From Candidatus Ozemibacter sibiricus (GTDB lineage Bacteria > Muiribacteriota > Ozemobacteria > Ozemobacterales > Ozemobacteraceae): a DNA stretch of 64,000 nucleotides. This document shows, one piece after another, positions 21,165 to 48,113 of this stretch. The stretch spans positions 62,001 through 126,000 of the forward strand of contig QOQW01000001.1 in assembly GCA_003327425.1 (NCBI GenBank). Reading direction: 5' to 3'. How positions within the stretch are numbered: position 1 is the stretch's first letter; each line of letters begins with the position of its first letter. Made by a program: the position numbers and the translations under genes. The notes beneath the pieces are model-generated. The model worked only from the letters and a program-made list of their open reading frames with translations. It did not search any database and was not told the origin of the DNA.

Positions 21165-23651
21165 TCATGATCGGGGTTTGAAGCTGTGGCATTCGGCCAC
21201 GATGCTGCCGTCCTTCAGCTTCTGGTAGGGCAGCAGCTCGACCTCGACCTCGTCGTTGCCGACCAGGAAGGGCAAGGAGGCGATCCCTTCCAGGAGGTAG
21301 GTCTGTGCCTCATGCTCGATCGCGACCAGGCCATCCGGACGGACCTCCTTGACCCGGGCGATGATCCGCCCCATCCGGTTCATGCGCACCCCGTCCGGGA
21401 TCTCGGAACGGTGGATCAGCTCGGCATCTGCCTTGCGCGGATCGAAAGGTTCGGGCCGGGCGGGCAGCGAGCCGGTCTCGCTCGGGGTCAGCAGGCGCAG
21501 GAACATCGACGGGAGGAAGGCCAGCACCGTGATGAGGGCCAGCACCAAGGCATAGGTCCGCCACTCGCCGCCCGCGGCTTTGTCCTTGTTCAGCGCCTCT
21601 TCGCGCTTCGCCGTCTGGCGGCTGCGCATGGCCGCCCGGACCTGGGCTACCGCGTAGGGCTTGGGCGCGGCGGTCGCCTCGGGGGCGACGGGCTCCGCGC
21701 CGGTCACGGCGGGCGCCGGCGTACCGGTCTGTGACAGGGAACCTGCAGGGGGGGAAGAAGGTGGCGCCTGCCCCGCTGCCGTTTTTTCCGCCCGCGGCGC
21801 TCCACGTTTGGCCCGGGTCGCCCCGGCGGCTTCATCATCCAGGCCGAGCTGCAGGATCAGGTCGAACAGGTCCATGCGGGCCTGGGCGATGGTCATCGAG
21901 ACCGACGGATTGGAACGGGCATGGACGCGGTCGAGCTGATCGAGCAGTTCGACCGAGGGATTGGACAGCAGCACCACCAGGATCTGCCGGGCGATGGCCG
22001 AATGATCTTCCTTTTCCAGGGTCGTGAGCAGGAGGCTCGAGACCTTCTCGACGGGGAACAGGAAGAGGCTGCCGACGGCGTTGGCGCGGGTGGCGGGGTC
22101 GGGCGACGCCAGCATGCCGGCCAGGGCCTGCAGGGCCGCGGCTTCGTCGTGCTGGCGGGCGATCTTGATGCCCCGCGCCCGCAACCGGGTATCCGAGCTG
22201 GCCAGCATGGCCGGCAGGAAGGGCAGCAGCTTGCGGGCATCGGCTTTTTCGATGACTCGACTGGCGGCGGCCTGCAAGCTGGGGTCGCTTTCGCGCATCG
22301 CCGCTTCGGCGATCGGCAGGCTCTCATTGGTGGAATCGAGCCGGGCGAGCGCATGGAGCGCCGCCACCCGCACCATCGGGCTGCCGCTGCGCGCTTCCTC
22401 CCGCACCCAATCGGCCCAGAGCTTGAACCCCTCTTCATCGAGGGCCCGCAGGAACTGCCGCTTGTCTTCGTCGCCATACTGGCCGGGCGAGCCGGCCAGC
22501 GCCGCCAGCTGTTTTTCTTTGGCGTAGGCCTGCTGCAATTGCCGCGCCAGTTCTTCGGTGGCGGGGTTGAGGGCCAGCCGCTCCACCGTCGCCCGCACCT
22601 CGGGAAGGTCCATGTTCCGGGACAACCACGTGGCCAGCGCGTCGCGGCGCGGCCCCGCCGTCAGCGTGATCTGCACCTCCAGATCGGCCAGGAACTTCTT
22701 CAACCGCTCCTGCCGCCAGCGTGCCAGCATCGCCTCGGGGGTGGCTTCGGCCGCCGGCACCAGGCCGGTGGCGGCCAGGGCCTGGCACAGCACCTTGAAC
22801 AAGGTGGTCAGGGTGGCCGCCTGCTTCTTGTCGGCCGTGGTATCGATCAGGTCGAGCAGACGCAGGGCGCTGTCGACCTCCGGATTGGAGGCCAGCAAAG
22901 TGCCGCATCCCTTCAACACCTCGGGATCGGTCTCCTCCTGGAGGATGGCGAACAACAGCTCCCGAACCTTCGGAAACGGGAACAGGAAGGCGATCGACAG
23001 GCCGGCCAGCCGATCTTCTTGCCGCCGTGAGGCCAGCAGCTCGGCCAGGTGGGCCTCCGCCTCCTCGGGGTCGATGCGGCGCAGGGCGGTGATGGCGCGG
23101 CCGCGCACCAGCGGGTGGGTCGAGGCGAGCAGGTCGGGCAGCAGCGGCTGCAAGGCGGTGGGCGACAGCGCCTCCAGCGCTTCCAGGAACGGCAGCACCA
23201 GATTCGAATCGGTGGCCTTGAGCTGTTCGACCAGCCAGGGGACGTCTTCTTCTCCGCCGTTCTTGCTGAGGAAGACCGCCACCGCGGGCTTCACCTCGTC
23301 GGGAATCTGCGCGCGCCGCTCCCGGATCAGGGCGAGCAGGCGCGGGATCTCGACCTTGAGGGGCGCCAGCAGCGTCGTGCGGTCGAGGAAGGCGCCAGGC
23401 CCTGGGCTGGGCGCCGCCCCGCCGCTGCTCTCTTCCGGTTTCTGGCCGAGCCGGGCCTGGATCTTGGCGATGGCCTGGGCCGCGAAGAACGACAGCTCCC
23501 GGTCGTTGCTTTCGGCCAGCTTCCGCAAGCGATAGATCACTTCCGGATCGGTCGAGATCTTGGCGAGTTGCACCACCGCCCCGATGACGACCGACCGCTT
23601 GTCGGAGGCGAGCTGGGCGATCAGCCCCTGTTCAGGGGAGGTGTCGCTCAC
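21165..23651 (-). CDS. Large HEAT-repeat protein with C-terminal membrane segment
   Basis: 828 residues from GTG 23651, which overlaps the stop of the STAS gene by 4 bp (GTGA); the frame upstream of it is only a shadow of that gene. Nearly the whole N-terminal 560 residues consist of HEAT-type helical pairs (for example LASDKRSVVIGAVVQLAKI, LLASTHPLVRGRAITALRR, MLASPDPATRANAVGSLF). A Pro/Ala-rich linker is followed by one membrane helix (YALVLALITVLAFLPSMFL, about residue 705) and a small C-terminal beta domain ending FKPRS. HEAT solenoids are protein-protein scaffolds. Tight coupling to a STAS domain protein suggests they act together in signalling or envelope organisation. Confidence 0.8.
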   Translation of the reverse strand: MSDTSPEQGLIAQLASDKRSVVIGAVVQLAKISTDPEVIYRLRKLAESNDRELSFFAAQAIAKIQARLGQKPEESSGGAAPSPGPGAFLDRTTLLAPLKVEIPRLLALIRERRAQIPDEVKPAVAVFLSKNGGEEDVPWLVEQLKATDSNLVLPFLEALEALSPTALQPLLPDLLASTHPLVRGRAITALRRIDPEEAEAHLAELLASRRQEDRLAGLSIAFLFPFPKVRELLFAILQEETDPEVLKGCGTLLASNPEVDSALRLLDLIDTTADKKQAATLTTLFKVLCQALAATGLVPAAEATPEAMLARWRQERLKKFLADLEVQITLTAGPRRDALATWLSRNMDLPEVRATVERLALNPATEELARQLQQAYAKEKQLAALAGSPGQYGDEDKRQFLRALDEEGFKLWADWVREEARSGSPMVRVAALHALARLDSTNESLPIAEAAMRESDPSLQAAASRVIEKADARKLLPFLPAMLASSDTRLRARGIKIARQHDEAAALQALAGMLASPDPATRANAVGSLFLFPVEKVSSLLLTTLEKEDHSAIARQILVVLLSNPSVELLDQLDRVHARSNPSVSMTIAQARMDLFDLILQLGLDDEAAGATRAKRGAPRAEKTAAGQAPPSSPPAGSLSQTGTPAPAVTGAEPVAPEATAAPKPYAVAQVRAAMRSRQTAKREEALNKDKAAGGEWRTYALVLALITVLAFLPSMFLRLLTPSETGSLPARPEPFDPRKADAELIHRSEIPDGVRMNRMGRIIARVKEVRPDGLVAIEHEAQTYLLEGIASLPFLVGNDEVEVELLPYQKLKDGSIVAECHSFKPRS

Positions 23652-24001
23652 GACCCGAAGTAGGCTTTGGCTTCTTCCACAGTGGCGAACAACGTGCCGA
23701 CCTGGTTCATCCCGGCGATCTGGAAGGCCTCGAGCACCAGGTTCGACATCTTGCAGAAGCCGATCTCCAGATGGTGGGTGTCTTGCAGGTTCTCGCAGAT
23801 ATCGATCAGGGCGGCCAGCCCGTTGCTGTTGACCACGGGAGCTTCGCTGAAATCGAAGATCACGTATTTCAACCCCTGCAGATTCACGGCCTTCACCGAC
23901 TCGGTCAGCTTCTTTCCGAGCGCTTCGGCAAAGTACCCCACGGGGTTGATCATCAACCAGGGCGGATCGACCCTGATGTGGCATTCGACAGGTTTGTTCA
24001 C
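23648..24001 (-). CDS. STAS-domain anti-sigma factor antagonist-like protein
   Basis: 117 residues if started at GTG 24001, which has GGAGGA nine bases upstream; ATG 24031 would add ten residues. The fold is STAS: a first strand (IRVDPPWLMINPVGYF), then LKYVIFDFSEAPVVNSNGLAALIDIC. In the SpoIIAA family this last block carries a phosphorylatable Ser after D-S/N-x-G; here it is VNSNGLA, with Ser next to Asn, so phosphorylation by an anti-sigma kinase is plausible. SpoIIE-type phosphatase genes for such systems exist elsewhere in the window (49.7-51.3 kb). The following HEAT gene overlaps it by 4 bp. Confidence 0.8.
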   Translation of the reverse strand: MNKPVECHIRVDPPWLMINPVGYFAEALGKKLTESVKAVNLQGLKYVIFDFSEAPVVNSNGLAALIDICENLQDTHHLEIGFCKMSNLVLEAFQIAGMNQVGTLFATVEEAKAYFGS

Positions 24002-24145
24002 GGTTCCGGATCCTCCGGCGACATCATACATGGATCGACCCGCTTCCGGCAAGAGCGTGCGTCACCCGCTCGCCTCGCCGGTCGACGAACGACGCTTCAC
24101 CCTCTGCCCTGCGGGGGCGCGGGCGGCGTCCCCCGATGGCGCCGA

Positions 24146-27064: not shown

Positions 27065-27757
27065 TCACCGGGATTTTCTGAAGGTATCGGCAAACGTGTA
27101 GGTGCCATCCGAGGCGATGTTGACCACTACCCCTTTTTTGGGGATGATGAACTTTCCTGATTCATTCTCGAGGAGGATCAGCTCTTTTTCCACCTTGATG
27201 ATGGGGATGTCATTGAACAGGTCTCCTGCTTTGTACAGGCGACTGTCGACGATGGCGAGCAGGGCGTTGGGAGTTTCGATGGTGCCCAGGAAATCGCCAG
27301 GCATCAAAGAGGTGGGCTTGGTCGGTTTCTTCTCGCCGCCTTCCACCACCTCCTCTTTCGATTTGCCCGCTGCTTCCATCATGGCGATGAAAGGTGAAGG
27401 TTCGAAGGGTGTCCGGGTCAGTCGAGAAAAGGCGAGAATGATCGGATCGCCCTCTTCTTTCGGCTGGGCCGCTTGATTGGCTTCAGAGGGGGCACTGGCC
27501 ACCAGGTTGGCAGGTTGCTCGCCGTCGCCCGGCTCGTCTGACGCTTCAGGGGGCGGGGTGGACGTTGCCACCTCGGCTGGCTCCGTGGCGGGGTCCGGGG
27601 ATGGGCGTGGCGTAGCGACCTCGAGGTCGTCCAGGTTGACGGCTACCGCCACTTTTCTCGGGGGCCTGGGAGGAGACTTGGGGCGGTTCTTGAACCATTG
27701 AAACCCCATGGCCGCCGAGAGAATGATCAAGCTCAGGAAGAACAATCGCTTTCCCAT
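27065..27757 (-). CDS. pilP: Type IV pilus inner-membrane lipoprotein-like protein PilP
   Basis: 230 residues from ATG 27757; the frame extends 17 codons upstream into pilO territory without a better start. One N-terminal membrane helix (LFFLSLIILSAAMGF) is followed by a long Pro/Glu/Ala linker. A C-terminal beta domain comes next: GDFLGTIETPNALLAIVDSRL, then IPIIKVEKELILLENESG. It has the PilP/GspC homology-region pattern (PilP links the PilMNO platform to PilQ). It lacks the lipobox of Pseudomonas PilP and is anchored by a helix instead, like GspC. It follows pilO by 10 bp. Confidence 0.75.
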   Translation of the reverse strand: MGKRLFFLSLIILSAAMGFQWFKNRPKSPPRPPRKVAVAVNLDDLEVATPRPSPDPATEPAEVATSTPPPEASDEPGDGEQPANLVASAPSEANQAAQPKEEGDPIILAFSRLTRTPFEPSPFIAMMEAAGKSKEEVVEGGEKKPTKPTSLMPGDFLGTIETPNALLAIVDSRLYKAGDLFNDIPIIKVEKELILLENESGKFIIPKKGVVVNIASDGTYTFADTFRKSR

Positions 27758-28399: not shown

Positions 28400-30256
28400 T
28401 CAGCCATCTTGGGGTGGGGGGGAATCCTCGGCGGCTGGCTCTTCGCTCGGTGATTCTTCTGGCGGCGGGGGCGGGGGAGGAATTTCTATCCTGCCGTTCA
28501 GAGCGAACCGAATGAAAAAATGACTCTCATCGATGGTGACTTCTTCGGTTGATTCGAGGGCAGGATTCTTGAAAAATTTCGATTGTCCCAGCGTTTTCAA
28601 GAATTCGAACACCCGATCTGAGGTATCCGTGTGCCCGGACAGGCGAAACGTTTTCGGTTCGGCTGCGACTTGAATGGAGGCATTCTGTAGAAAGACCTGG
28701 CGTGGTGTCAAGCTGGCCAGCTCCAGAAGAATCTCCGAGAGGGGAACTTTGGATGCTCGCAATTCATCGGCGAACCCGGCCTCCTTCCCGAGGCGCTCTT
28801 TATCGGCCAGCAATTGGGTGACTTCTTCCTGGGAAGTGGTCAATTCTTTGAGCTGGGATTCCAGTTTCGTATAATCCTTCTTGGCCTTTTCGACCTGCCC
28901 ACGGATCTTGACAATCGGATAGGACCCCAGCAGAAGGATCAGCCCCAGGAGGCACCCGGCGAGAATGCGAAGCTTCGTTTCGTCAAGCTTGGCAAGCCCT
29001 GCTCCCAGCTTCGAGCTGACCCCAGAGAGATCCATTGTTGTGGATCGGCGGTGGGGGAAGAGGATATCGATGAAATTGATCACCTTGGTGTCGCGCAGGG
29101 CATCGTAGCGGGCGATACCAACGGCTGGGGCAAGGGCGGGCCCTTCCTGTGGGAGGCGGTCGGGGGGAAAATTGGTGGAGGCAGGCGAGAGGTTTTTGAA
29201 TGGATCGCCGATGTCGGCCGGAACCTCGAGGCTTTCCTGGATGAATTCCTTGAAATTTTTCATGGCGGCCGAGCCGCCCGTCAGAATGATGCGGTCGATG
29301 GCCGATTCGCCAAACTGTGAGATATAGAAGCTGACGGACAATTGGATATGCTGGAAGATCTTTTCAACGGTAGAAAAGATCTGCTGTGCGGCCCACTTTT
29401 CAACCCCCTTCAGCGCTTGGATCTCGTCAGGAGGGAGGACGCCGATTTTGTGTTTCAGCTCGATGGCTTCATCGAGATTCTTGAATTCGACCTTTTGACC
29501 ATCGATCTCGCCGCCCGCATAGATGGCTTCGGTGATGGTTTCCCCGCCCATGTTGATGTCGCGGTAGAAATTCAAGACCCCCCCTTTGTAGATCATGATC
29601 GAGGTGGTTTTGTGGCCGCAGTGGATCAGAGCCACCTTGCCCTTGTCCCCGGCTGATTTCAGGGCGGGGCCGAGGGCCAGTTCCAGGCTTTGCGGCAGGG
29701 TCAAGATGCCCTCGATGCTCATGCCCCCGCCCTTCAGGTTGTCGGTCATGATTTTGACGATATCTTGCTGAAGGGCCGCCACCATGACCTGCTTGAGGGC
29801 TTTTTCCTCTTTGACCACTTCCCCGATTTCCTGCCACCCGAGGACGGCCTTCTCCATGGAAAAGGGCATCTGTTTGGCGGCCTCGGCATTGACGGCGGCC
29901 GCAAAGGCCTCTTTCTCAGGGGTGGGCGGAAGTTCGAAATACCGGATGGTCACCGGTCGCCCGCTGGCCAGGGTGATGCCGCGTTTGGTCTGGATCTGGT
30001 TGTCGTACAGAAGCTCGGTCAGATGCTTCGTGAGGAATTTCTGAAGCTTCTGAATGGCATCGTTCTCGATATCTTCGCGACTCATCTTCTCCCGTTCTTC
30101 GGGAGTGAGAAGGTGCGTAAATGGCGGAATGCGAAGGTGAGCCAAGGCTTTCAACACGGGCTGCCCGGCCCCCTCATTGCTGATGTGTACGAACTTTAGG
30201 GAAAAACTCCCTATGTCGACCGCAACGATCGGTTCGAATGTTCCTTTGTCTGCCAC
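28400..30256 (-). CDS. pilM: PilM-PilN fusion protein of the type IV pilus assembly platform
   Basis: 618 residues from GTG 30256 (GAGGAA upstream). Residues 1-385 are PilM, an actin-like ATPase fold: VAVDIGSFSLKFVHI, KVALIHCGHKTTSIMIYKGG (phosphate-loop-like), NMGGETITEAI and ILTGGSAAMKNF. Residues 393-404 (INFIDILFPHRR) resemble the INLLP-type N-terminal tail by which PilN docks onto PilM. A membrane helix (about 430-448, ILAGCLLGLILLLGSYPIV), a coiled coil and the periplasmic PilN domain follow, ending with a poly-Pro/Glu/Ser tail. In most species PilM and PilN are separate polypeptides; here a single chain crosses the membrane. No frameshift is needed: one continuous frame runs through the junction near 29,080. 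Confidence 0.9.
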   Translation of the reverse strand: MADKGTFEPIVAVDIGSFSLKFVHISNEGAGQPVLKALAHLRIPPFTHLLTPEEREKMSREDIENDAIQKLQKFLTKHLTELLYDNQIQTKRGITLASGRPVTIRYFELPPTPEKEAFAAAVNAEAAKQMPFSMEKAVLGWQEIGEVVKEEKALKQVMVAALQQDIVKIMTDNLKGGGMSIEGILTLPQSLELALGPALKSAGDKGKVALIHCGHKTTSIMIYKGGVLNFYRDINMGGETITEAIYAGGEIDGQKVEFKNLDEAIELKHKIGVLPPDEIQALKGVEKWAAQQIFSTVEKIFQHIQLSVSFYISQFGESAIDRIILTGGSAAMKNFKEFIQESLEVPADIGDPFKNLSPASTNFPPDRLPQEGPALAPAVGIARYDALRDTKVINFIDILFPHRRSTTMDLSGVSSKLGAGLAKLDETKLRILAGCLLGLILLLGSYPIVKIRGQVEKAKKDYTKLESQLKELTTSQEEVTQLLADKERLGKEAGFADELRASKVPLSEILLELASLTPRQVFLQNASIQVAAEPKTFRLSGHTDTSDRVFEFLKTLGQSKFFKNPALESTEEVTIDESHFFIRFALNGRIEIPPPPPPPEESPSEEPAAEDSPPPQDG

Positions 30257-32026: not shown

Positions 32027-34408
32027 ATGGGTAGTTGCAATTTTCCTCCCTCTGAAGTAAAGAAGGGCAAGATTAGTATGGCGAGGCTTGGGGAATCGCC
32101 TGTCGAACGAGCGATGGCAATTCAAGGTTCAGTGAAACCGAGGGGTTGGGCTGGCTGGGAAATTCTGCTGGTCCTGGGGATTCTATGGGGGACTGCCTTG
32201 GTGTGGCAGTTCTCCTCTATCGAAGCACACTACCCCTGGTTGGGGCGTTATCCCATGTTCGACCCCGATGCGGTCCTCTACCTTCGCTGGACAGAACAAG
32301 CTCTTTTGCGCGGAGCGTCATTGTCGGTCGATCACTACCACTGCTTTCCAGAACCTTATGTGATCGATTTCCCTCCTTACTATCGCAAGATCCTCCTTCA
32401 GTTTGTCTGGCTGACGTACCGATTCTTCCCCGATTGCTCCCTTCGCCCCGAATTTGTTGTCGGGATTCTTCCTCCGCTGGCCGCTGGGTTCCTTTCGATG
32501 GCCATCATTCTGTGGTTTTGGCTTCGCCGCAGGGAGAAAACCTTCCTTCTGCTCCTAGGCATCGGAATGTTTCCGGGATTTTCTCTCAGCGCGGCGTTTG
32601 CGTTCATGAACCTCGACCATCACTGGCTAGAAGTGAGTTGCATCTGGATCTGGATCATTCTCGCCGCCGAATTCCTGGAAACGGGGAGGCCATGGGCCGA
32701 AATTGCCGGTGGGCTGGCGATGACCCTGTTCCTTGGCACCTGGAATGGAGCGCCGCTGTGGCATTTCATCATTTGCCTCCTGGCGCTTCGATGGTTCTTG
32801 CGAGGGGGACTGGCTGGCGAGCGGTTCTGTGAGTTCGCCTCCAGTACCTTATTGATCGCCGGCTTTCTGATGTTGGGCCATTTGTACTTCGTGCAGCCAG
32901 GCCCGAAGAGTTGGGCTATCAACCATTTCGGTTGGTTGCAACCGACTCTGGCTACGATGGGTGGTTTTTTTTGTTGGCTCCTGCGGGCCACGATCAATCA
33001 TGAAAAGGTCACTTGGCGGGTCATTCTGAGCGGATCGGCCATAGTTCTCTCAGGCATTGGCATCCTCGGTTGGGTATTCCGGGAACCCATTTTGGCCGCC
33101 AGAAGTTTTTTGTTCCGGCAGCACCCAATCATCTCTGCGATTACCGAAATGCAACCCATCATTCGCTCGGTTAATTCCTCGGCAACTTGGCGTACGCTTG
33201 TAGGAATTTTTGGGCTTAATATCTGTGGTGTCCCTTTGCTATGGTCTGTTCACGCCGAACGCTGGTTGGGAAATTCGGGCCGGGTTGTTCGCGATGCAAC
33301 GATCTTATTTTTGGCGCTAGCGCTCTGGCAAATTCGCTTCATTCGTTGGTTGGCCATCGGGATGGGAGTCCTCAATGGCTGTGTTCTCGCCAATGTCTGG
33401 CACCTTGTGAAGATATCGCATGGCGGAGAGTCCAAACGTTGGGTTGCTCCTCTAATGGTAGGAATTTTTCTGATGGCCCAGCTGGGAGTTGGATTCAGTT
33501 CCTTCTGGCCGCCAGCGAAGCAACCGCCACCTGTTGGGGAAGCCTTGACTTGGCTCAGAGAGAAGACCCCGCCCACCTCTGGATATGTTGACGACCACGC
33601 TCCCCCTGAATACGGAGTATTAACCTTCTGGGATCTTGGGAATTTCATCGCTTATTACGCCCAACGCCCTCCAGTCACCAGCAATACGTTGCTAGGTGTT
33701 CGCCTGATGGCTCAGCTTTTTACCGCTGAATCCGAAGAGGAAGCCTTTGAGCGCTTTCGCGCAGCGCGGGTGCGGTATTTTTTCGTCTATTCGGGGAGCC
33801 CAGTTGATCAAGAATTCCACAGGATGATGGCGCTCTTGAAAAATTCCCCTTCAGGCGTGGAATTCGATCATGTCCCACCAACCCCGCCGCCTGATTTCCG
33901 GTGCATTCCTTTCTGGGAGGCCTTCTACGCTTGGGTGGTGCATGGAATGACCTTCATCGCCACTGGAAAATTCCCGGAAATGCCTAGCCGGTGCCGTTGG
34001 GTTTATGTATCCAAGGAAACTGAGCAGCGACTTCCTGTCTGTCGAATTCTGGAGATCGTCCCTGGGGCAGAGGTTGTCGGGCAGGGGGATCCGGGCACGA
34101 AAGTTCAGGGTTATCTCTCTCTGGTCCTCGGGAAATTCCCTATTCTGTTTACTGCCTCGGCCACGGTTGATGCTGGTGGAAAATATCGGTTGAGGGTCCC
34201 TTATGCCACGAGCAGCCGTTCTGGGCGGGTGCAAACTGGGGCCCACTTCTTGGTCCACTACCTTTCCCATGGGGCGACCCAAACGGCGAAGATTCAAATT
34301 CCTGAAGAGATGGTTCTCGCTGGCGCCGAAATCCGGGTGGATGGCAAGATCAATGAGCTTGCAACCGGTTCCGCAGGGGTGACCAAGGTTGACAACCCCT
34401 CCCGGTGA
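32027..34408 (+). CDS. STT3-family oligosaccharyltransferase-like membrane protein
   Basis: 793 residues; the ATG at 32027 has TAGGAA six bases upstream (ATG 32078 is an alternative). About 11-13 hydrophobic helices and a C-terminal soluble domain. Motif order follows the STT3/AglB/PglB family. First comes the first-loop FDPDAVLYLRWTEQALLRG (residues 78-96, FDP with metal-binding Asp). Second is LDHHWLEV (196-203, DxH...E motif), then ITEMQP (372-377, the TIxE/SVSE-like Glu). Fourth is FWDLGNFIAYYAQRPP (534-549), matching the WWDYG sequon-binding site with conservative changes. It would transfer a lipid-linked glycan to protein acceptors on the outer face of the inner membrane. The radical SAM cluster starts 47 bp downstream. 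Base composition is lower in GC than the far flanks. Confidence 0.75.
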   Translation: MGSCNFPPSEVKKGKISMARLGESPVERAMAIQGSVKPRGWAGWEILLVLGILWGTALVWQFSSIEAHYPWLGRYPMFDPDAVLYLRWTEQALLRGASLSVDHYHCFPEPYVIDFPPYYRKILLQFVWLTYRFFPDCSLRPEFVVGILPPLAAGFLSMAIILWFWLRRREKTFLLLLGIGMFPGFSLSAAFAFMNLDHHWLEVSCIWIWIILAAEFLETGRPWAEIAGGLAMTLFLGTWNGAPLWHFIICLLALRWFLRGGLAGERFCEFASSTLLIAGFLMLGHLYFVQPGPKSWAINHFGWLQPTLATMGGFFCWLLRATINHEKVTWRVILSGSAIVLSGIGILGWVFREPILAARSFLFRQHPIISAITEMQPIIRSVNSSATWRTLVGIFGLNICGVPLLWSVHAERWLGNSGRVVRDATILFLALALWQIRFIRWLAIGMGVLNGCVLANVWHLVKISHGGESKRWVAPLMVGIFLMAQLGVGFSSFWPPAKQPPPVGEALTWLREKTPPTSGYVDDHAPPEYGVLTFWDLGNFIAYYAQRPPVTSNTLLGVRLMAQLFTAESEEEAFERFRAARVRYFFVYSGSPVDQEFHRMMALLKNSPSGVEFDHVPPTPPPDFRCIPFWEAFYAWVVHGMTFIATGKFPEMPSRCRWVYVSKETEQRLPVCRILEIVPGAEVVGQGDPGTKVQGYLSLVLGKFPILFTASATVDAGGKYRLRVPYATSSRSGRVQTGAHFLVHYLSHGATQTAKIQIPEEMVLAGAEIRVDGKINELATGSAGVTKVDNPSR

Positions 34409-34455
34409 CCTAAATTGTACTCAACCTCACTCGGAATTGTCGGAAGGTGTGGTGA

Positions 34456-35871
34456 ATGAGCATTCTCCTTTTGGATCCGCCGCCCACCAACCCTTTCGGG
34501 AACATGCGGCATTTCGGAAGCATTGGCACGTTCAAAGCACGCATCGCCTACCCCCCGATCGACCTCCTGAAAATTGCCGGATTTCTTCGTCAGGAAGGCG
34601 TTGGTTTCAAGCTTCTCGATGCCAATGCCTTGCGACTCCCGCCCGAAACCGTCCTGGCCACCATCGCGGCTGATCCGCCTCAGGCCATCGTTTTTCCAAC
34701 CAGCACGACCAGTCTTCCGCAGGACATGGCCTTGGCCGCGCGGGTCAAAGCGGCCTTCCCCACCACCTTGACAGTGGCTTTCGGAGCCCATGTTCGGGCT
34801 GTTCCTGCTCAGACCCTCCAGGAATACCCTGGTCTCGATGTCGCAATCGTGGGTGATCAGGAATGGGTCGCGAGGGAACTGGCCCGGTGCCATTTCCAGC
34901 TCAGCAAAGTCCGGGGAGTTTGGTACCGCGAGGGTTCGACAATCCGGGGAAATCCTCCTCACCCCCCGGTAGAGGATCTCGATGTTTACGGCATCGCCGC
35001 CCACGACTTGATAGATCCCCGGCTCTATGGCGACCCTCTGGCTCGTCGACGTCCGATGACCATCACCTATGGTCAGATCGGGTGCCCTAACCGCTGTCGC
35101 TTTTGCATGTCTCAGGTGTATGGGCCAGTTCGACGACGCTCGGCCGACCATTTGGTGCAAGAGCTTCGATTCATCGCCGATTGCGGCTTCAAGGAAGTCT
35201 TTTTCATCGACTGCGGGCTGACCGACAGCCGAACCTGGGCGGTGTCCTTCCTGGCTGCTCTCGAGCGTGCTCATCTCGATCTGACCTGGTGGGCGCTGTC
35301 GAGGGCCGATCGTCTCGATGAAGACCTCCTCGACCGCATGCACCGCACTGGGTGCCATTCCATTGGTATCGGGGTCGAGAGCGCCAATGCCGAGGTCATT
35401 CGGCGGGTAGGGAAAGGAGTCGATCTGCGGCAAGTCAAAAAACTGGTGCGCCAGATCCATCGACGCCGGATGCGCGTCTTGCTCTATTTCCAATTCGGGT
35501 TACCGGGCGAAACTCGCCAGAGCATGCAAGAGACCCTTGATTTCGCCTTGGCGAGCCAAGCCGATTTTGTCACCTTCGGAATCGCCACCCCCGTTCCTGG
35601 CACCCCTTTCTATGATGAGCTACGTGAGCGTAGGTGGCTCCACACTCAAGACTGGGCCTCCTATGATCCTACCCGACCGCCGGTCTATTCTTACCCGGGT
35701 CTCTCCTCCCAGGAAATCTTCGCCTTCGCTCAAGAAGCCTACCGACGCTTCTACTTTCGGCCTGGGTATATTCTTCGCCGTCTTGCCTCCCAGCGTTCGT
35801 GGCAGGAGGTGCGAACCAATGTCGTCAATTTTGTCGCGTTGCTCCAGCGTTACGTATTCGGTTGGGCCTGA
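34456..35871 (+). CDS. B12-binding-type radical SAM enzyme RS1
   Basis: 471 residues; ATG 34456 follows GGAAGGTG. An N-terminal Rossmann-like cobalamin-binding domain (ILLLDPPPTN; VAIVGDQE, about 1-160) is followed by a radical SAM TIM barrel with CxxxCxxC at C210, C214 and C217 (GCPNRCRFC), then IGIGVESANAEVIRRVGKG (SAM region) and FQFGLPGETRQSM. A C-terminal helical extension contains YRRFYFRPGYILRRL. Class B cobalamin-dependent radical SAM enzymes commonly methylate unactivated carbons or phosphorus, but other chemistries exist in the family. First of four such genes in the cluster; spacing to the next is 12 bp. Confidence 0.9.
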   Translation: MSILLLDPPPTNPFGNMRHFGSIGTFKARIAYPPIDLLKIAGFLRQEGVGFKLLDANALRLPPETVLATIAADPPQAIVFPTSTTSLPQDMALAARVKAAFPTTLTVAFGAHVRAVPAQTLQEYPGLDVAIVGDQEWVARELARCHFQLSKVRGVWYREGSTIRGNPPHPPVEDLDVYGIAAHDLIDPRLYGDPLARRRPMTITYGQIGCPNRCRFCMSQVYGPVRRRSADHLVQELRFIADCGFKEVFFIDCGLTDSRTWAVSFLAALERAHLDLTWWALSRADRLDEDLLDRMHRTGCHSIGIGVESANAEVIRRVGKGVDLRQVKKLVRQIHRRRMRVLLYFQFGLPGETRQSMQETLDFALASQADFVTFGIATPVPGTPFYDELRERRWLHTQDWASYDPTRPPVYSYPGLSSQEIFAFAQEAYRRFYFRPGYILRRLASQRSWQEVRTNVVNFVALLQRYVFGWA

Positions 35872-35883
35872 GGAGGAGAGACG

Positions 35884-37284
35884 ATGCACGTTTTGCTTGT
35901 CATACCTCCGCGGCCTCGTCTGACGATCTTGCCAGCTCCGGACATCGGGGTGGCTTACGTCGCCCAGGCAGCTCGCCAGGCGGGCGTCGTCGTCGAGGTG
36001 CTCGATGCCCACCTAGAAGGGTTCGATACTGAACAAACCATCCAGGCCATTACCCGTCGTCGCCCTGATGTGGTTGGTTTCAAGTGCTTGACCATGGACC
36101 ACGATGAAGTCCAGCGGGTCGCCAGGGGGGTCAAACGGGCCCACCCGTCATCGGTGGTGGTGGCTGGGGGGCCCCACCCGAGTGCCCTGCCCGACCTGGT
36201 CCTGGTGGAGGGAGCCATCGATGCCTTGCTGATCGGGGAAGGGGAGCCCGGCATTCAGGCCCTGCTAAACTGCCTAAAAGCAGGAACCTCAATGGCTCGA
36301 CTTCTCGCCGCGGAACCTCGGGTGCCAGGCTTGGTCTGTCGAAGAGATGGGGAAATTCTCCGCACCCCTCCGGGTCTGGTAGAAGACCTCGACGGATTGG
36401 GTTTCCCCGCATGGGATCTCTTTCCCCTGGCCCGCTACCCGGTTCTTCCAGGTTCCGGTGGGCGGTTCTTGCCGGTGTTGACCAGTCGGGGCTGCCCTTG
36501 TTCCTGCCGCTTCTGTGCTTCGCCCCGACTGCATGGTCGCGTCTTGCGTTGGCGATCCATCGAAGGGGTGATCGCCGAGATTCGATGGCTGGTCGATCGA
36601 TTCGAACTCCAAACGGTCAGTATTTTTGATGATAATTTCGCCGCCAACCCCGACCACGCGATTCGATTTTGCCGGGCGTTCCGGGCCGCCCGCTTGCCTG
36701 TCCCCTTTGACGTTCCCCAGGGGCTGCGCTTGGATACCCTGTCCGACGCAGTGGCTGACGAGCTCGCGATGGCCGGCTGCCGGTTGATCGGTCTTGGGCT
36801 GGAAAGCGGCGTCCAGAAAAGTCTCGACCGCATGGGGAAGGGGTTGCGGGTCGATCAGATCGAGGCGCGCGTGCGAAGGGTGAAACAACGGACGGGTATT
36901 CCTCTCAACGGGTTTTTCATTTTGGGTTTTCCCCATGAGACCATTCGCGATGTATGGCAGACGATTCGCTTCGCCTTGCGCCTACCGCTCGATTATGCGG
37001 CTTTTACCCTGTTTACTCCCTTCCCGGGGACTCCGATATTTGACGACATGGTCGCTGCTGGCTATTTCCACCCCCATCAGCTCCCATGGAGTAATCTGGT
37101 CCTCGATCGGCCGGTATTTGCCCACCCCAAGATTTCCCAGATCACGCTCAAGCGCCTGCAAACCTTAGCGTATCTATTGTTCTATCTGCATCCACGGCGC
37201 TGGCGGTTTTTTCACCGAATCTTCTGGCAAGAAGCCAGCTTTCTGTCGTATGCCCGGCGGTTCCTGTCGATCGCCGGTTGCTAG
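35884..37284 (+). CDS. B12-binding-type radical SAM enzyme RS2
   Basis: 466 residues; AGGAGG lies eight bases upstream of ATG 35884. An N-terminal cobalamin-binding-like domain (MHVLLVIPPRPRLTILP; VVVAGGPHPSALPDL) precedes the radical SAM core with C204, C208 and C211 (RGCPCSCRFC), LGLESGVQKSLDRMGKG and GFFILGFPHETI. The C-terminus is rich in aromatic and basic residues (YLHPRRWRFFHRIF). The BchE/HpnP-like arrangement is typical of class B. The gap to the following AsnB gene is 17 bp. The substrate is unknown. Confidence 0.9.
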   Translation: MHVLLVIPPRPRLTILPAPDIGVAYVAQAARQAGVVVEVLDAHLEGFDTEQTIQAITRRRPDVVGFKCLTMDHDEVQRVARGVKRAHPSSVVVAGGPHPSALPDLVLVEGAIDALLIGEGEPGIQALLNCLKAGTSMARLLAAEPRVPGLVCRRDGEILRTPPGLVEDLDGLGFPAWDLFPLARYPVLPGSGGRFLPVLTSRGCPCSCRFCASPRLHGRVLRWRSIEGVIAEIRWLVDRFELQTVSIFDDNFAANPDHAIRFCRAFRAARLPVPFDVPQGLRLDTLSDAVADELAMAGCRLIGLGLESGVQKSLDRMGKGLRVDQIEARVRRVKQRTGIPLNGFFILGFPHETIRDVWQTIRFALRLPLDYAAFTLFTPFPGTPIFDDMVAAGYFHPHQLPWSNLVLDRPVFAHPKISQITLKRLQTLAYLLFYLHPRRWRFFHRIFWQEASFLSYARRFLSIAGC

Positions 37285-37301
37285 GGAAAGGAGGGTAAAG
37301 C

Positions 37302-39182
37302 ATGTGCGGAATCGCCGGATTCCATGGCCCGGGCGGCCTCGAAGATCTGCAGGCCATGCTCGCTGCCCTGGCCCACCGGGGGCCCGATGACGCCGGAACC
37401 TATGTCGCGAGCCCTCTCTACCTGGGACACCGCCGTCTATCCATCATCGACCTGTCTGAGCAAGGGCGCCAGCCTATGGCCAATGAGGATGGCACCGTTT
37501 GGTTGGTCTTCAACGGCGAGGTCTACAATTTTCCGGTGCTGCGGGCCGAGCTGGAGAGAGCGGGGCATCGGTTTCGTAGCCGGACCGACACCGAGGTCAT
37601 CATCCATCTCTACGAAGAGCACGGGCCAGCGGCGTTCACCCGGTTGAACGGAATGTTCGCCCTGGCCCTGTGGGATGCTCGCTGTCGCCGATTGCTGTTG
37701 GCTCGGGACCGCCATGGCCAGAAACCGTTGTTCTATGTGGCTCGCGATGGTTTGTTCGCCTTCGCGTCAGAAGCGGCCGCCTTGACCCGCCATTCGCGGA
37801 TCCCAGGGAATCTGCACCTGCCGGCCCTGGCCAGATTCCTTTTCTATGAGCACATTCCTGCCCCCGATTGCATTTGGGAAGGAATCCGGAAGCTTGCGCC
37901 AGCTTCCTGCCTCGAGTTCGATCCGGAGCAGCAGAGTGTTCGGGTTGAACGATACTGGTCGGTGCAGTTCTTGCCTCGCCATCCGATATCTGCTGGAGAG
38001 GCGGTGTCTGCCCTCGAAGAACGTCTGGAGGCAGCGGTACGTCGCCATCTGATCGCGGATGTTCCCGTGGGTTTGTTCCTCAGCGGCGGACTCGATTCCT
38101 CGACTCTCGCATGGTTCGCCCAGCGAGCTTTGGGTGGCAGGCTACGTACGTTCACCATCGCCTTTTCCGAAACGAGCTTTGGTGAGCAGGATCTGGCTCG
38201 GGCGACTGCCCACCAACTCGGCACCCGACACGAAGAGATCTTCTTTGGCCGGGAAGATTTCTGGGCGACGGCCCAGGAGGTGGTGGGCCGGCTCGATGAG
38301 CCTTTCGCCGATTCGTCGATCATACCTGCCTACCATTTGTGCCGGATGGCTCGCTCGAAGATCAAAGTCGCTTTGGGTGGAGAAGGCGGCGACGAATTGT
38401 TCCTTGGTTACCCTTGGTTTCAGGCAGTTCAAGTCGCGCGCATGCTTCAGGCCTTTCCTCGGGCGGTGCGCCGGAATCTGCTGCTTCCCTTGGTCGACTG
38501 GCTGCCCTGTTCCCACCGGAATGAAACCTGGGAATACAGGGTCAAAAAGTTCTTCGAAGCAGAACCTTGGCTGGATGATCCGATCCAAGCTCAGCAGGTA
38601 TGGGTTGGGGCGTTCGGCCCCGAACGTTTGCGGAAGCTTTTCCGTCCCGAGGTGCACCCCCACCTTGGCTTGGAATCGCTGTTTGCTCCGCTCGAGTATT
38701 ATCGGACCGATGCCCAACCAGGCGAAACCGCGTTTGATGGGGTCGTGCGCTTGACCCAGCATCGCTACCTTATGGATGATGGACTGACCAAGACCGATCG
38801 GGCTTCCATGTTCCATGGACTGGAACTGCGAGCTCCGCTGCTCGACGTCGAACTGGCCGATTGGGTGAACCGGCTTCCCCATGCGCTCAAACGGAGAGGC
38901 GGGCGGACCAAGCTTCTGCTGCGACGGCTGATGGCCGGACGTCTTCCTCCAGAAGTTCTGGGGGGGCGGAAACGCGGGTTCACCCCCCCGATTTCTCAAT
39001 GGTTTTGCGAGGATTTTCGGGATCGAGTGCAGGAGATGTTGTTCCGCCCCGGGCCTTGGTTCGATCCGCATTACATTCGCCAACTCTGGGATGAGCATGT
39101 CCGCCACCGGCAGAACCACCGAAAGCTGTTATGGACGCTCTTCATGTGGAATTGGTGGAGCAGTATTCACCTCAGGGTCTGA
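37302..39182 (+). CDS. asnB: AsnB-type glutamine-dependent amidotransferase
   Basis: 626 residues with AGGAGG before ATG 37302. The N-terminal class II glutaminase domain starts with the catalytic Cys2 (MCGIAGFHG), with HRGPDDAG and FNGEVYNF as glutamine-site motifs. The C-terminal synthetase domain has the ATP-pyrophosphatase loop SGGLDSS (261-267) and GGEGGDELFLGYPW. It uses glutamine-derived ammonia and ATP to amidate a carboxylate, as in asparagine synthetase. In envelope-glycan clusters such enzymes often amidate uronic acids, which is the more likely role between radical SAM and glycosyltransferase genes, rather than housekeeping asparagine synthesis. Confidence 0.93.
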   Translation: MCGIAGFHGPGGLEDLQAMLAALAHRGPDDAGTYVASPLYLGHRRLSIIDLSEQGRQPMANEDGTVWLVFNGEVYNFPVLRAELERAGHRFRSRTDTEVIIHLYEEHGPAAFTRLNGMFALALWDARCRRLLLARDRHGQKPLFYVARDGLFAFASEAAALTRHSRIPGNLHLPALARFLFYEHIPAPDCIWEGIRKLAPASCLEFDPEQQSVRVERYWSVQFLPRHPISAGEAVSALEERLEAAVRRHLIADVPVGLFLSGGLDSSTLAWFAQRALGGRLRTFTIAFSETSFGEQDLARATAHQLGTRHEEIFFGREDFWATAQEVVGRLDEPFADSSIIPAYHLCRMARSKIKVALGGEGGDELFLGYPWFQAVQVARMLQAFPRAVRRNLLLPLVDWLPCSHRNETWEYRVKKFFEAEPWLDDPIQAQQVWVGAFGPERLRKLFRPEVHPHLGLESLFAPLEYYRTDAQPGETAFDGVVRLTQHRYLMDDGLTKTDRASMFHGLELRAPLLDVELADWVNRLPHALKRRGGRTKLLLRRLMAGRLPPEVLGGRKRGFTPPISQWFCEDFRDRVQEMLFRPGPWFDPHYIRQLWDEHVRHRQNHRKLLWTLFMWNWWSSIHLRV

Positions 39183-39203
39183 GGTGAATTGGGGGTTGAG
39201 GGA

Positions 39204-40091
39204 ATGAGACGTGTAAACTTAGGTCGCACGGGGTTGACGATGTCGTGGGTTGGGCTGGGAACCTCGGCTGCCTATGATGGTGTGCTGTGTCCGGCCAAAG
39301 TGGCCGTGACCGATTACCCCCGGCTTCTCGAATACGGGTTTCGCCAGGGGATCACCTGGTGGGATGCCTCGCCGACCTACGGCACCCATGGTGCCATCCG
39401 TTGCGCTCTCCGGCGGGTCCCTAGACGGGAGGTGGTCCTTTGTTCGAAAACCGTGGCGGTTTCGGGGCGCGGAGCCCGGGCCGATGTCGAGCGGGCCTTG
39501 CGCCAGATGGGAGTGGAGGAAATCGACATCTTCCTCCTCCAGACCATGCGCAGTGGCTTGGAATTTCGCATTCGGAGGGGGGCGTGGCAGGCGTTGCAGG
39601 ATCTGAAACGAGAAGGGCGGATCAGGGCCATCGGGGTGGCCGCTCATGGGTTGGGAGTGCTGCAGGCGGCCTTGCACGAACCAGCTCTCGACGTGGTGTT
39701 GGGCCGGATCAATTACGCCGGCGACCTCATGGATCGGTGGCAGGAAGATCTGCCCTCCCTTCTCGCGGGGTTGCCGCCCGTCAAACGACTGCTGTTGGAT
39801 CTTCTCCCTCGCTCTTTGTTCGCCAGGCTGGCTGGGCGAGTGCACCACTTGCGCGCCAGTCCCCAAGAACAAGCGATGGCCCGGGAGCTGTTCGCTCGTC
39901 TGGCCGCCGCCGGGAAAGAAGTGCTCGGTATGAAGATCTTCGGGGAAGGGGCGCTGGCGGGGGACGTGCCGCGTGCGGTCGCCTATGCCGCCGGGTTGCC
40001 CTGGCTGCGGGCGATCCTGGTCGGTGCGTGCTCGGAAGCGGAAATTGATGCCGTGGTCGCAGCGGCCAGCCAAGCCCAGGGAGGTCGATGA
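39204..40091 (+). CDS. Aldo/keto reductase-like protein with altered catalytic His
   Basis: 295 residues from ATG 39204 (GAGGG upstream). Family features are LGRTGLTMSWVGLGTS and WDASPTYG with D54 and Y59, CSKT with K82, and DIFLLQTM with Q113, where active AKRs have the tetrad His. Region IRAIGVAAHG fits the family barrel. The C-terminus AYAAGLPWLRAILVGACS is the usual NADPH-binding end. The conserved Asp, Tyr and Lys with a His-to-Gln change suggests altered or lost reductase activity. It abuts the next gene with no gap. Confidence 0.85.
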   Translation: MRRVNLGRTGLTMSWVGLGTSAAYDGVLCPAKVAVTDYPRLLEYGFRQGITWWDASPTYGTHGAIRCALRRVPRREVVLCSKTVAVSGRGARADVERALRQMGVEEIDIFLLQTMRSGLEFRIRRGAWQALQDLKREGRIRAIGVAAHGLGVLQAALHEPALDVVLGRINYAGDLMDRWQEDLPSLLAGLPPVKRLLLDLLPRSLFARLAGRVHHLRASPQEQAMARELFARLAAAGKEVLGMKIFGEGALAGDVPRAVAYAAGLPWLRAILVGACSEAEIDAVVAAASQAQGGR

Positions 40092-41555
40092 ATGGCGTTG
40101 TCGATCCGGGTTGCCCTGCTGAACGGCCCTGCCACTCCCCATTTCGCCCGAACCGGGCGTTGGCAGGCCACCGCACGGGGCGCCAGCTTGTGGTATCCCA
40201 TCTGGCTGGCGGCGGCCGGGGCTCGACTCGAAGCGGCGGGAGTGCCCGTGACGTTGATCGACGCCCCGGCTGAAGGACTCGACCTGCCGGCGACGTTGAC
40301 TCGGTTGCAAGCCTTCCACCCCGATCTCGTGGTCATCGATACTTCCACGGCCAGCATCACCTACGACCTGCAGACCGCGCAAGCCGTAAAATCCAGTCTG
40401 CGGCCGCCTCCCCGGACCTGTCTGGTCGGGCCTCATGCCTCGGCCCTGCCAGAATCGGTGCTGTCGGCGGCTGGAGTCGATTTTGTGGCGATCGGCGAAT
40501 ACGACGAGACGCTGTATGAGCTGGCGGTCCGTTTACAGGAGGATCCGTCCACCGACGGGGCCAATCTTGCGGGTCTGTGGGGCAAGAATGCCGGTGGCGA
40601 GGTGCGGAATCCGCCGCGACCGCTCATTGCCGATCTCGATGCCCTGCCGTTCGCCTCGAGCTTTTTGGCTCGCCACCTCGATGTGCATTGGTACGGCCTC
40701 GATTTCACCTTGCATCCTTATATGACCATCATGACCTCGCGCGGATGTCCCTTCCGTTGCACCTATTGTTTGTGGCCGCAAACCTTGTCGCGGGGAACCT
40801 TTCGCGAGCGCAGTCTCGACCACGTCTTCAAGGAGATAGAGAGCGTCTGCCATCTTCGCCCTGCCATTCGCGAGATCTTCTTCGATGATGATACGTTCTG
40901 TGTGAGACCAGAGCGGGTCCGCGAGTTTGTCGACCGCTATCGGCTTGGAAGGTACGGGCTGCCTTTCTCGGTGAATGCGCGGGCCGATATCACCGATGCC
41001 TCGTTGCTCGAGGCCATGCGGGATGCCGGTCTACGGTGTGTGGTCGTGGGCTTCGAGTCCGGAACGCAGGCGATCCTCGATGCCGTTCGGAAAGGCACCC
41101 GCCTCGATCGCATGCGAGAATTCGCCAGGATCTGTCGCGCATTGGGCATTCAGGTGCATGGGGATTTCGTCATCGGGTTGCCGGGAGAAACCAAAGAGAC
41201 CATCAGGCGCACCGTGGCTTTTGCCAAGCGGCTGGGCTTGTCAACCTTCCAGATTGCCATCGCCCAGCCTCTCCCTGGAACGGCATTCTACGACTGGGTA
41301 AAGAGCCATGGCTATCTGACGACCTCGGATTTCAGGGAATGGGTCGATGCCGATGGCCGGCAACGCTGTGTCATATCTTATCCTGATCTGACCGCTGCCG
41401 AAATGGACGTGGCGGTCCGCCAGGCGATCAGGGAGTTCTACCTCTCCGCTTCCTTCCTGGCGAGCGCCCTGCGCAATATTCTGCGAAATCCTCGCGAAAT
41501 CTGGCGCTATGCCTGGGGGGGGATGCGCCTCTTCCGCTTCTTTTTCGGGGGGTAG
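40092..41555 (+). CDS. HpnJ-like B12-binding radical SAM enzyme RS3
   Basis: 487 residues starting right after the preceding stop (TGA/ATG adjacent). The N-terminal region (RWQATARGASLWYPIWLA, VTLIDAPAEGLDL, LVVIDTSTASITYDLQTA) resembles hopanoid-associated HpnJ. The Fe-S motif is C219, C223, C226 in RGCPFRCTYC, followed by LWPQT and by IFFDDDTF. VGFESGTQAILDAVRKGTR and FVIGLPGETKET complete the core. HpnJ itself closes the bacteriohopanetetrol cyclitol ether; here no other hopanoid genes are seen, so the similarity suggests fold and possibly a sugar-derived substrate rather than the same reaction. Confidence 0.85.
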   Translation: MALSIRVALLNGPATPHFARTGRWQATARGASLWYPIWLAAAGARLEAAGVPVTLIDAPAEGLDLPATLTRLQAFHPDLVVIDTSTASITYDLQTAQAVKSSLRPPPRTCLVGPHASALPESVLSAAGVDFVAIGEYDETLYELAVRLQEDPSTDGANLAGLWGKNAGGEVRNPPRPLIADLDALPFASSFLARHLDVHWYGLDFTLHPYMTIMTSRGCPFRCTYCLWPQTLSRGTFRERSLDHVFKEIESVCHLRPAIREIFFDDDTFCVRPERVREFVDRYRLGRYGLPFSVNARADITDASLLEAMRDAGLRCVVVGFESGTQAILDAVRKGTRLDRMREFARICRALGIQVHGDFVIGLPGETKETIRRTVAFAKRLGLSTFQIAIAQPLPGTAFYDWVKSHGYLTTSDFREWVDADGRQRCVISYPDLTAAEMDVAVRQAIREFYLSASFLASALRNILRNPREIWRYAWGGMRLFRFFFGG

Positions 41556-45189: not shown

Positions 45190-46395
45190 CTATTTCATCT
45201 GCTGGACGATCGAGAACAGCGGCATGAACACCGATAGGGCGATACCGCCGATGATGATGCCCATGACCACTGTCAGAATAGGAGTCAAGGCAGAGGTCAG
45301 ACCGTCAAGGGCTTCGGCCACTTCCTGGTCGAAGAAGTCAGCGGCTTTTTCCAGCATCTTGTCGAGGTTGCCCGAGTTTTCGCCGACCTCGATCATCTTC
45401 TGGACCATGGTGGGAAACAGGGGATTGCCTTTGATGGTGGCGGCGAGTCGCTTCCCTTGCTGGACACCGACAGCCATCTCCATGATCATGTTTTCGAACA
45501 GCTTATTGCCCATGACCGAGGCGGTGATCTTGAGCGCGTTCAGAATCGGCACGCCGGCGGCCAGCAGCGAGCAGAAGGTGCGGCAGAAGCGGCTGACGGC
45601 GACCTTCTTGGTCAAATTGCCGACAATGGGGGCGCGCACCGCGATATGGTTCATCAGACTCTCTCCCAGGTCGGTCTGCAGGAAGAGGTACCCGCCAACA
45701 CCTACTCCCGCAGTGCCGATCAACCACATCATCCAATTTTCGATCAGACTGTCGGACAAAAAGATCAGGAATTTGGTGATGCCGGGCAGATCGGCCTTCA
45801 TCTTCTTGAACATCTTGGTGAAGTTCGGGAAGATCTTGACCAGCAGGAAGACCACGCAACCGATGGCCAGCACGAGCTGGACGACGGGCATGGTCAGGGC
45901 GCTCTTCACCTTGCCGCGCATCTTGGAATCGGCTTCGGCGAACGAGGCCAGCCGCTTCAGCACCGAATCGAGCATGCCGCCCGCTTCGCCGGCTTCGACC
46001 ATGTTGCAGAAGATGTGATTGAACACCTTGGGAAATTTGCGAAGAGAAGAGGAGAACGTCTGGCCGCTCTGCAGGTCTTTCCCGATCTTTTCGAGGACGC
46101 TTTTGAAATACGGATTCTCGGTCTGGTCCATCATGATGCCGATCGCTTCGACCAGCGGAATGGCCGACCCCACCAAGGTGGAAAGCTGCACCGTGAACAC
46201 CATCAACTCCTTGCTGGAGACGCTGCCGCCGAAGAACCCGCCGAAGCCGCCACCTTCCTTGGCGGCGGTGGCCTTGACCAGGTAGAAGCCTTTTTCCGAA
46301 AGAAGCGACGCCAGCTTCTGGATGCTTTCCGCTTCGATCGTCGTCTTGAGGATTTCGCCCTTCGAATTCTTGACCTCGCAATCGTATTTGGGCAT
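45190..46395 (-). CDS. pilC: Type IV pilus/type II secretion inner-membrane platform protein PilC/GspF
   Basis: 401 residues. An N-terminal extension (YDCEVKNSKGEILKTTIEA) is followed by two T2SSF domains: ELMVFTVQLSTLVGSAIPLVEA with GEAGGMLDSVLKRLASF, and VSRFCRTFCSLLAAGVPILNAL with GENSGNLDKMLEKAADFFDQE. Three membrane helices follow the domains. PilC anchors the extension and retraction ATPases. It lies downstream of pilB by 38 bp. Confidence 0.93.
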   Translation of the reverse strand: MPKYDCEVKNSKGEILKTTIEAESIQKLASLLSEKGFYLVKATAAKEGGGFGGFFGGSVSSKELMVFTVQLSTLVGSAIPLVEAIGIMMDQTENPYFKSVLEKIGKDLQSGQTFSSSLRKFPKVFNHIFCNMVEAGEAGGMLDSVLKRLASFAEADSKMRGKVKSALTMPVVQLVLAIGCVVFLLVKIFPNFTKMFKKMKADLPGITKFLIFLSDSLIENWMMWLIGTAGVGVGGYLFLQTDLGESLMNHIAVRAPIVGNLTKKVAVSRFCRTFCSLLAAGVPILNALKITASVMGNKLFENMIMEMAVGVQQGKRLAATIKGNPLFPTMVQKMIEVGENSGNLDKMLEKAADFFDQEVAEALDGLTSALTPILTVVMGIIIGGIALSVFMPLFSIVQQMK

Positions 46396-46433: not shown

Positions 46434-48113
46434 TCAATCGGATCGGCACAGGGCGAAGACCTCGTCAGGAGTGGTCAACCCCTGGGTGAATTTCAGCACG
46501 ATGTCTTCCTTGAGCGTTTTCATGCCATTTTTGATCGCCGCGGCCATCAGATCGTCGCCTGATGCTTTCTGGATGATCAACCGCCGGATGGTCTCGCTGG
46601 TATACATGACCTCGTGCACCCCGACGCGACCTTTGTAGCCGGTATTGCCGCATTTTTCGCAGCCTTTTCCCCGGTAGTAGGTGTTGTTGATCGCTTCGGG
46701 GGGCAACCCCAGGGTGGCCAGCACTTCCGGAGTGATCGAAGTGTCGACATCCTTGCAGAACTTGCAGATGCGCCGCGCCAGACGCTGGGAGACCACGCAC
46801 AGCAACGCCGCCGAGACCAGGAACGGTTCGACGCCCATGTCGATCAGTCGGGAGGCGGTGCTGGGGGCATCGTTGGTGTGCAGCGTGGCGAAGACCAGGT
46901 GGCCGGTCAAGGCCGCTTCGACGGCGATGGTGGCCGTCTCCTCGTCGCGGATCTCGCCCAGCATGATGACATCCGGATCCTGTCGCAGGAAGGCGCGCAG
47001 CACCTTGGCGAAATCCAGGTCGATCTCGGGCCGCACCTGGACCTGATTGATCAATTTCAGCTTGTACTCGACCGGGTTTTCGACCGTGCAGATGTTGACA
47101 TCGACTCCCTTGATGGCATTCAGGCACGCATACAGCGTCGTCGTCTTCCCTGAACCGGTCGGCCCGGTGACCAGCACCATGCCGTTGGGGGCGGCGATGG
47201 CTTTCTTGACCATCTCGAAATTGTGCGGAGTGAAGCCCATCATGTCGAGATCGACCTGCACATTGGACTTGTCGAGGATCCGCAGGCAGACCTTCTCCCC
47301 GTAGGCGACGGGAATGGTATTGACCCGGAAGTCGATCGGCTTGTCCATGATCGTCATCTGGATACGGCCATCCTGGGGGATGCGCCGCTCGGAGATGTCC
47401 ATGGAAGCCAGGATCTTGAGGCGTGAGACGAGCGAGGCCTGCGCTTCGGGCTGCAGCGTCATCGCCACCATCAGGCTGCCGTCGATGCGCAGGCGGACCC
47501 GCAGCTCCCCTTCGTCGGGCTCGATGTGGATGTCGCTGGCGCCTTTCTGCACGGCCTGGGTCAGAATCAGGTTGCACAGCTTGATGATCGGGGTGTCGTC
47601 GCTGGCTTTCTTCAGCGCATCGAGTTCGCTGGCCGACGCCTGGCCATCCCCGCTCATCCCTTGCAGGGCTTCGGCCATGGCCCCGGCGACATACAGTTTG
47701 TCGAGGTTTTCCAGGATCTGGTTTTCCGAGCAGATGGCGCGCACCACTTCGCAGTTGTTCTGGAACTGGATCTCGTCGATGATGAACACGTCGAGAGGAT
47801 CGGCCATGCCGATCATCAGGCTCTTGCCGTCGAAGCTGATGGGGATCAGCAGGTGCTTGCGCGCGATCTTCTCGGGCACCATCTTCAGCACTTCAGGTTT
47901 GATCTCGACCTTGCTGAGATCGACGAATGGCACCTTGAGCTGTTTCCCGAGAATGGGCAGCAGCTTGTCTTCCGTCAGATAGCCAAGTTCGATGAGCACC
48001 TGCCCGATGCGTTTGCCGCGCTTCTTCTGCTCGGCGAGCGCGATGTTCAGCTCCTTTTCGCCGATATGGCCGGCTTCGATGAGCATCTCCCCGATCTTCT
48101 TGCGCTTGAACAT
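46434..48113 (-). CDS. pilB: Type IV pilus extension ATPase PilB/GspE
   Basis: 559 residues. An N-terminal MshEN/T2SSE_N domain (about 1-150: KRKKIGEMLIEAGHIGEKE) precedes the GspE ATPase core. Core motifs are GASDIHIEPDEGELRVRLRI (Asp box region), Walker A GPTGSGKTTTLY (317-328), VIMLGEIRDEETATIAVEAALTGH (Walker B/Asp box, 382-405) and HTNDAPSTASRLIDMGVEP. The metal-binding CxxC pairs (C450-x2-C453 and the later GCEKCG) mark PilB/GspE-type proteins. It powers pilin polymerisation. Confidence 0.94.
   Translation of the reverse strand: MFKRKKIGEMLIEAGHIGEKELNIALAEQKKRGKRIGQVLIELGYLTEDKLLPILGKQLKVPFVDLSKVEIKPEVLKMVPEKIARKHLLIPISFDGKSLMIGMADPLDVFIIDEIQFQNNCEVVRAICSENQILENLDKLYVAGAMAEALQGMSGDGQASASELDALKKASDDTPIIKLCNLILTQAVQKGASDIHIEPDEGELRVRLRIDGSLMVAMTLQPEAQASLVSRLKILASMDISERRIPQDGRIQMTIMDKPIDFRVNTIPVAYGEKVCLRILDKSNVQVDLDMMGFTPHNFEMVKKAIAAPNGMVLVTGPTGSGKTTTLYACLNAIKGVDVNICTVENPVEYKLKLINQVQVRPEIDLDFAKVLRAFLRQDPDVIMLGEIRDEETATIAVEAALTGHLVFATLHTNDAPSTASRLIDMGVEPFLVSAALLCVVSQRLARRICKFCKDVDTSITPEVLATLGLPPEAINNTYYRGKGCEKCGNTGYKGRVGVHEVMYTSETIRRLIIQKASGDDLMAAAIKNGMKTLKEDIVLKFTQGLTTPDEVFALCRSD

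Follow-up and report, generated by a model that had tools for sequence, protein, structure and literature searches.

In type IV filament machines PilM provides a socket for the PilB ATPase and is docked to PilN at the cytoplasmic tip of the latter; PilN in turn is the partner of PilO, and PilP makes the connection to the secretin (PMC4471445, PMC11656802). In M. xanthus PilM is the last to join, being diffuse beforehand (PMC10653833). In the window analyzed here (a stretch of 64,000 nucleotides from a draft genome of Candidatus Riflebacteria/Ozemobacteraceae, assembled in 58 contigs) PilM and PilN are encoded in one frame, raising the questions of whether the join is real, to what kind of machine the product belongs, and what would change when PilM is tethered to PilN. 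The gene very probably encodes a PilM-PilN fusion that acts at the inner membrane as assembly stator for a machine of the type IV filament kind; it shares its topology with T2SS GspL, but its sequence is of the PilM/PilN type.

The fused gene and its product

The pilMN frame (Table 1) is uninterrupted, with no internal stop in ORF analysis, and starts with a GTG codon preceded by a GAGGAA-type ribosome-binding site. As an earlier note on this DNA had proposed, it holds both proteins, each scoring above its Pfam cut-off: PilM_2 at 95.6 bits (E 3.7e-27; cut-off 27) and PilN at 35.8 bits (E 8.4e-9; cut-off 22.8). The score against TIGR01175 (PilM), 114.8 bits, is below that model's own cut-off of 133. 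Along the chain the PilM actin-like domain is followed by the linker motif, a membrane helix, a coiled coil and the PilN domain; the PilN part is therefore complete, as the same note had it, with helix, coiled coil and ferredoxin-like domain all present, and the PilN domain aligns, at an hhalign probability of 93.4, with one of the genome's split PilN proteins. The predicted nucleotide-site signatures of PilM (D14, G16, K21, G214, T218, G327 and G328) are invariant in 17 orthologues.

Table 1. Coordinates of the fused gene, its parts and the surrounding filament genes in the window.
Feature	Position	Strand	Evidence
pilMN, fused PilM-PilN, 618 aa	28400..30256	(-)	ORF; Pfam PilM_2 and PilN; fused orthologues in family
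PilM actin-like domain, residues 13-382	29111..30220	(-)	PF11104; Foldseek best matches PilM 5eou, 5eoy, 2ych
INLLP-like motif INFIDILFPHRR, residues 393-404, putative docking	29045..29080	(-)	Orthologue alignment
Single transmembrane helix, residues ~431-449	28910..28966	(-)	Hydropathy 2.3 over 19 residues; helix in AlphaFold model
PilN periplasmic domain, residues 509-584	28505..28732	(-)	PF05137; modelled secondary structure
PilO/GspM-like protein, 205 aa	27768..28385	(-)	PF04350, E 1.1e-10
PilP/GspC-like protein	27065..27757	(-)	Position, N-terminal helix, C-terminal HR-like sequence; order kept in relatives
Small lipoprotein-like protein, 152 aa	26385..26843	(-)	LFGTGC lipobox-like start; place kept in relatives
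Secretin, 671 aa	24146..26161	(-)	PF00263, E 1.7e-49
Type IV pilin, GspG-like, 186 aa	30445..31005	(-)	N_methyl, T2SSG; TIGR01710 63.9 bits, under cut-off
PilB/GspE extension ATPase with MshEN domain	46434..48113	(-)	T2SSE, E 1.2e-131
PilC/GspF platform protein	45190..46395	(-)	T2SSF, E 7.2e-59

AlphaFold modelling of the whole chain (11 sequences) gave a mean pLDDT of 63, with block means of 27-28 over residues 391-420; for residues 1-410 the mean was 76.9, with only 54 at residues 391-400, so that confidence in the linker is low in both models. The motif itself is at about 54 and may or may not sit in the groove of its own PilM. The PilN domain is modelled as a long helix followed by helix-strand-strand-helix-strand-strand, the order expected of PilN, at a pLDDT mostly of 74-89. 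In Foldseek comparisons (TM score normalized by target) PilN-bound PilM structures scored 0.79 (5eou_B), 0.74 (5eou_A) and 0.80 (2ych), and free PilM with ADP or AMP-PNP scored 0.67-0.70, a hint from the model which suggests that the PilM part may be in a state like that of PilN-bound PilM. The best fold match, 5eou, is the crystal structure of PilM:PilN1-12, a laboratory construct containing only a peptide of PilN, and its PDB sequence entry lists a single chain under the names of both.

The kind of machine encoded at the locus

Downstream of pilMN lie genes for PilO, the PilP-like, lipoprotein-like and secretin proteins, a STAS protein and a HEAT-repeat protein, and upstream lies the GspG-like pilin, in an order that is mostly kept in relatives. 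The PilP-like protein, which probably starts at the second Met in its ORF as listed, has no significant match to a Pfam family and owes its label to its position. PilC and PilB (45190-48113) are separated from the rest by a 13-kb island on the opposite strand; with these two included, the locus holds a set of the T4aP type, namely PilB, PilC, pilin, PilMNOP and secretin. No PilT-like ATPase adjoins it (29 T2SSE matches, several in PilT-sized frames, are found in the genome), nor was GspK (T2SSK) found there. The extension ATPase scores better as PilB (626 bits) than as GspE (549 bits), and the secretin slightly better as GspD (264.7 bits) than as PilQ (246.9 bits); because these preferences point in opposite directions and all of the equivalog models score under their cut-offs, the machine has no firm placement as T4aP or T2SS. 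Judged by its sequences the locus is type IV filament-like, and its product may be either a pilus or the pseudopilus of a secretion system.

A single chain comprising an actin-like cytoplasmic domain, one helix and a periplasmic ferredoxin-like domain is also the architecture of T2SS GspL (PF05134), which is one chain in every T2SS and of which the PilMN complex is the orthologue (PMC4471445). The gene might then be a true GspL whose docking motif is a relic and whose machine secretes proteins, a reading with which the identical topology, the secretin and pilin scores and the lack of an adjoining PilT all agree. We regard it as unlikely, since sequence support from either the T2SSL profile or hhalign is lacking: T2SSL has no match in the 618-residue protein, in its own genome or in any genome of the family, and alignment to E. 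coli GspL by hhalign, in a single-sequence test, was negative. GspL structures are likewise absent from the best 50 Foldseek matches, which are of PilM, FtsA and MreB types; the ATPase scores better as PilB, and the sole T2SSK match of the genome is on another contig (C25). Unlike GspL, with which it has no detectable sequence match, the window protein has PilM/PilN-type sequence and keeps the PilN docking motif.

The island (32027-44031) carries beside the pilin gene an STT3-like oligosaccharyltransferase (32027-34408 (+); TIGR04154, E 1.9e-37, under cut-off) and, by sequence, also radical-SAM-like, asparagine synthase-like and glycosyltransferase-like genes; it possibly serves glycosylation of the pilin. 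The locus is flanked by a SpoIIE-type phosphatase with a GAF domain (49662-51281 (-)) and by the STAS protein (23648-24052 (-)), and partner-switching control of the filament machine is a possibility.

The linker motif

The linker was said in the earlier note to retain the INLLP-like docking motif of PilN, and the motif is indeed found there and is conserved: N394, F395 and P401 of INFIDILFPHRR are invariant, and I393 and I398 nearly so, in 17 aligned orthologues. Most other fused proteins have an INLLP-like motif at the equivalent place: INLL or INLLP at the junction in a second family of this phylum and, in other phyla, INILPEKYRP, INLLPPDY or VDFLP. These fusions carry such a motif, and the genome's own split PilN proteins begin similarly (MIKINLI on contig C38, MRFHFDLLPPEYK and MKHLLNFEPP); the simplest reading is thus that the linker motif is the N-terminus of PilN kept inside the chain.

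A rival possibility is that translation gives the fusion and that separate PilM and PilN also arise, either because GTG392 acts as an internal start or because the chain is cleaved, in which case nothing is hard-wired. The codon before the motif is in fact GTG in the window gene and in one more orthologue, but most orthologues have ATC, ATA, ATT, ACA, GTC or others there, two have no start codon of any kind nearby, and no ribosome-binding site precedes GTG392. With the start codon not conserved at the junction, an internal start yielding free PilN was rejected, and production of separate proteins by either route is highly improbable.

Conservation of the fusion in the family

Related genomes, where the earlier note proposed to look for the same join, contain it: full-length fused orthologues are present in 18 of the 24 genomes of the Candidatus Ozemobacteraceae/Riflebacteria family, the 17 others being 41-86% identical to the 618-residue protein. 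One further orthologue runs off the end of its contig, and all five genomes with no match are assemblies of at most 82% completeness; no split version of the pilMN orthologue was seen among the 24. An assembly or sequencing error joining two genes, such as one that hides a stop/start pair at the junction, might be suspected in a draft of 58 contigs, yet it is refuted for practical purposes by the same open frame in 18 separately assembled family genomes, the conserved linker, and a codon bias that continues across the junction, where codon-position GC is fairly even. The PilM-PilN fusion is real and old within the phylum.

Proposed consequences of tethering PilM to PilN

In the fused protein the cytoplasmic PilM part would serve as the socket for PilB, and the conserved motif INFxDIL.P.R would dock on the PilM of its own or a neighboring chain, the tether adding to this docking. 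Anchored by one helix, the chain would pair with PilO through its periplasmic PilN part, and that part would reach the secretin by way of the PilP-like protein. Recruitment of PilM to the membrane would become obligatory through the fusion and no longer reversible; by analogy with M. xanthus we infer that fusion alters recruitment, in that PilM would be unable to leave PilN or to join last.

The proposal that the fusion hard-wires the PilM:PilN link is sound as an idea, although not without precedent. PilM and PilN are also fused in C. difficile (PMC6916266, citing Melville and Craig 2013), and as this natural fusion exists and the PilMN complex is orthologous to the one-chain GspL, the fusion in the window is not exceptional. 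The 1:1 stoichiometry that the earlier note saw fixed by the fusion is not new, since a dodecameric ring shared by split PilM and PilN has been modelled before (PMC8389850); the fused chains may assemble likewise.

From its description (PMC6916266) PilMN of the Clostridioides difficile type IVa pilus resembles the window protein in being a natural PilM-PilN fusion. C. difficile, however, is a monoderm without a secretin, and for monoderm PilN a different, C-terminal motif has been proposed (PMC6916266), whereas the window protein keeps an INLLP-like motif of the diderm type. Long PilM-like proteins at a diderm pilus locus are known in the Amuc_1101 family (NF045709, 608 positions), against which the window PilMN scores 97.6 bits, below the equivalog cut-off of 650. 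Among the papers searched none was found on a PilM-PilN fusion in Riflebacteria. PilM-PilN in one chain is thus already known, and what is new here is a phylum-wide diderm member that keeps the diderm docking motif.

Should tethered PilM support a working machine, then release or late recruitment of PilM is not essential for assembly of a type IV filament. This would be consistent with GspL and with C. difficile PilMN, and would carry the point over to pilus-type machines of diderms in which the docking motif is kept.

Other PilM and PilN systems in the genome and phylum

The same genome encodes on contig C47 a second fused PilMN, of 572 aa, which is accompanied by a separate set of PilB, PilC, PilO and secretin. 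It also has split PilM/PilN pairs on three contigs (C38, C29 and C39), and with two fused and three split systems the genome allows free PilM to be compared with tethered PilM in a natural setting. The C47 protein aligns over its full length with the window PilMN family (hhalign probability 98.9), and its match to NF045709 extends beyond PilM into the PilN region. The split pair of the T4aP-like locus on C38 has the same domains as the window protein, but in two genes and on a separate branch of the PilM tree. The C47 secretin (L030:2853-6731) is read across two neighboring frames, of 955 aa for the N-domain part and 331 aa for the pore part, and is either truly split or frameshifted. The genome as a whole has 29 matches to type II/IV secretion ATPases, 7 to PilN and 5 secretins, which indicates many type IV filament systems existing side by side.

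Across the phylum most genomes have a canonical PilM of 350-385 aa together with one or more frames of 500-660 aa, in several of which Pfam finds PilN. A branch of the PilM tree with support 95/90 has 30 fused proteins on one side; most fused proteins of the phylum form one deep group, and others fall elsewhere on long branches, so that between one and four fusion events have to be allowed for (the tree requires four changes, and several long branches meet in it). It is conceivable, if rather unlikely, that the one-chain stators form a deep phylum-wide lineage, marked by the docking motif and the PilM nucleotide-site signatures, which is a living intermediate between pili with split PilM and PilN and GspL of T2SS and belongs to a class of filaments distinct from both T4aP and T2SS. 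A 575-aa fused protein from another phylum (G051; L071:1931-3655) scores with PilM_2, PilN and, near the cut-off, T2SSL, and has INLLPPDY at its junction; by its sequence it might form a bridge linking GspL with PilMN.
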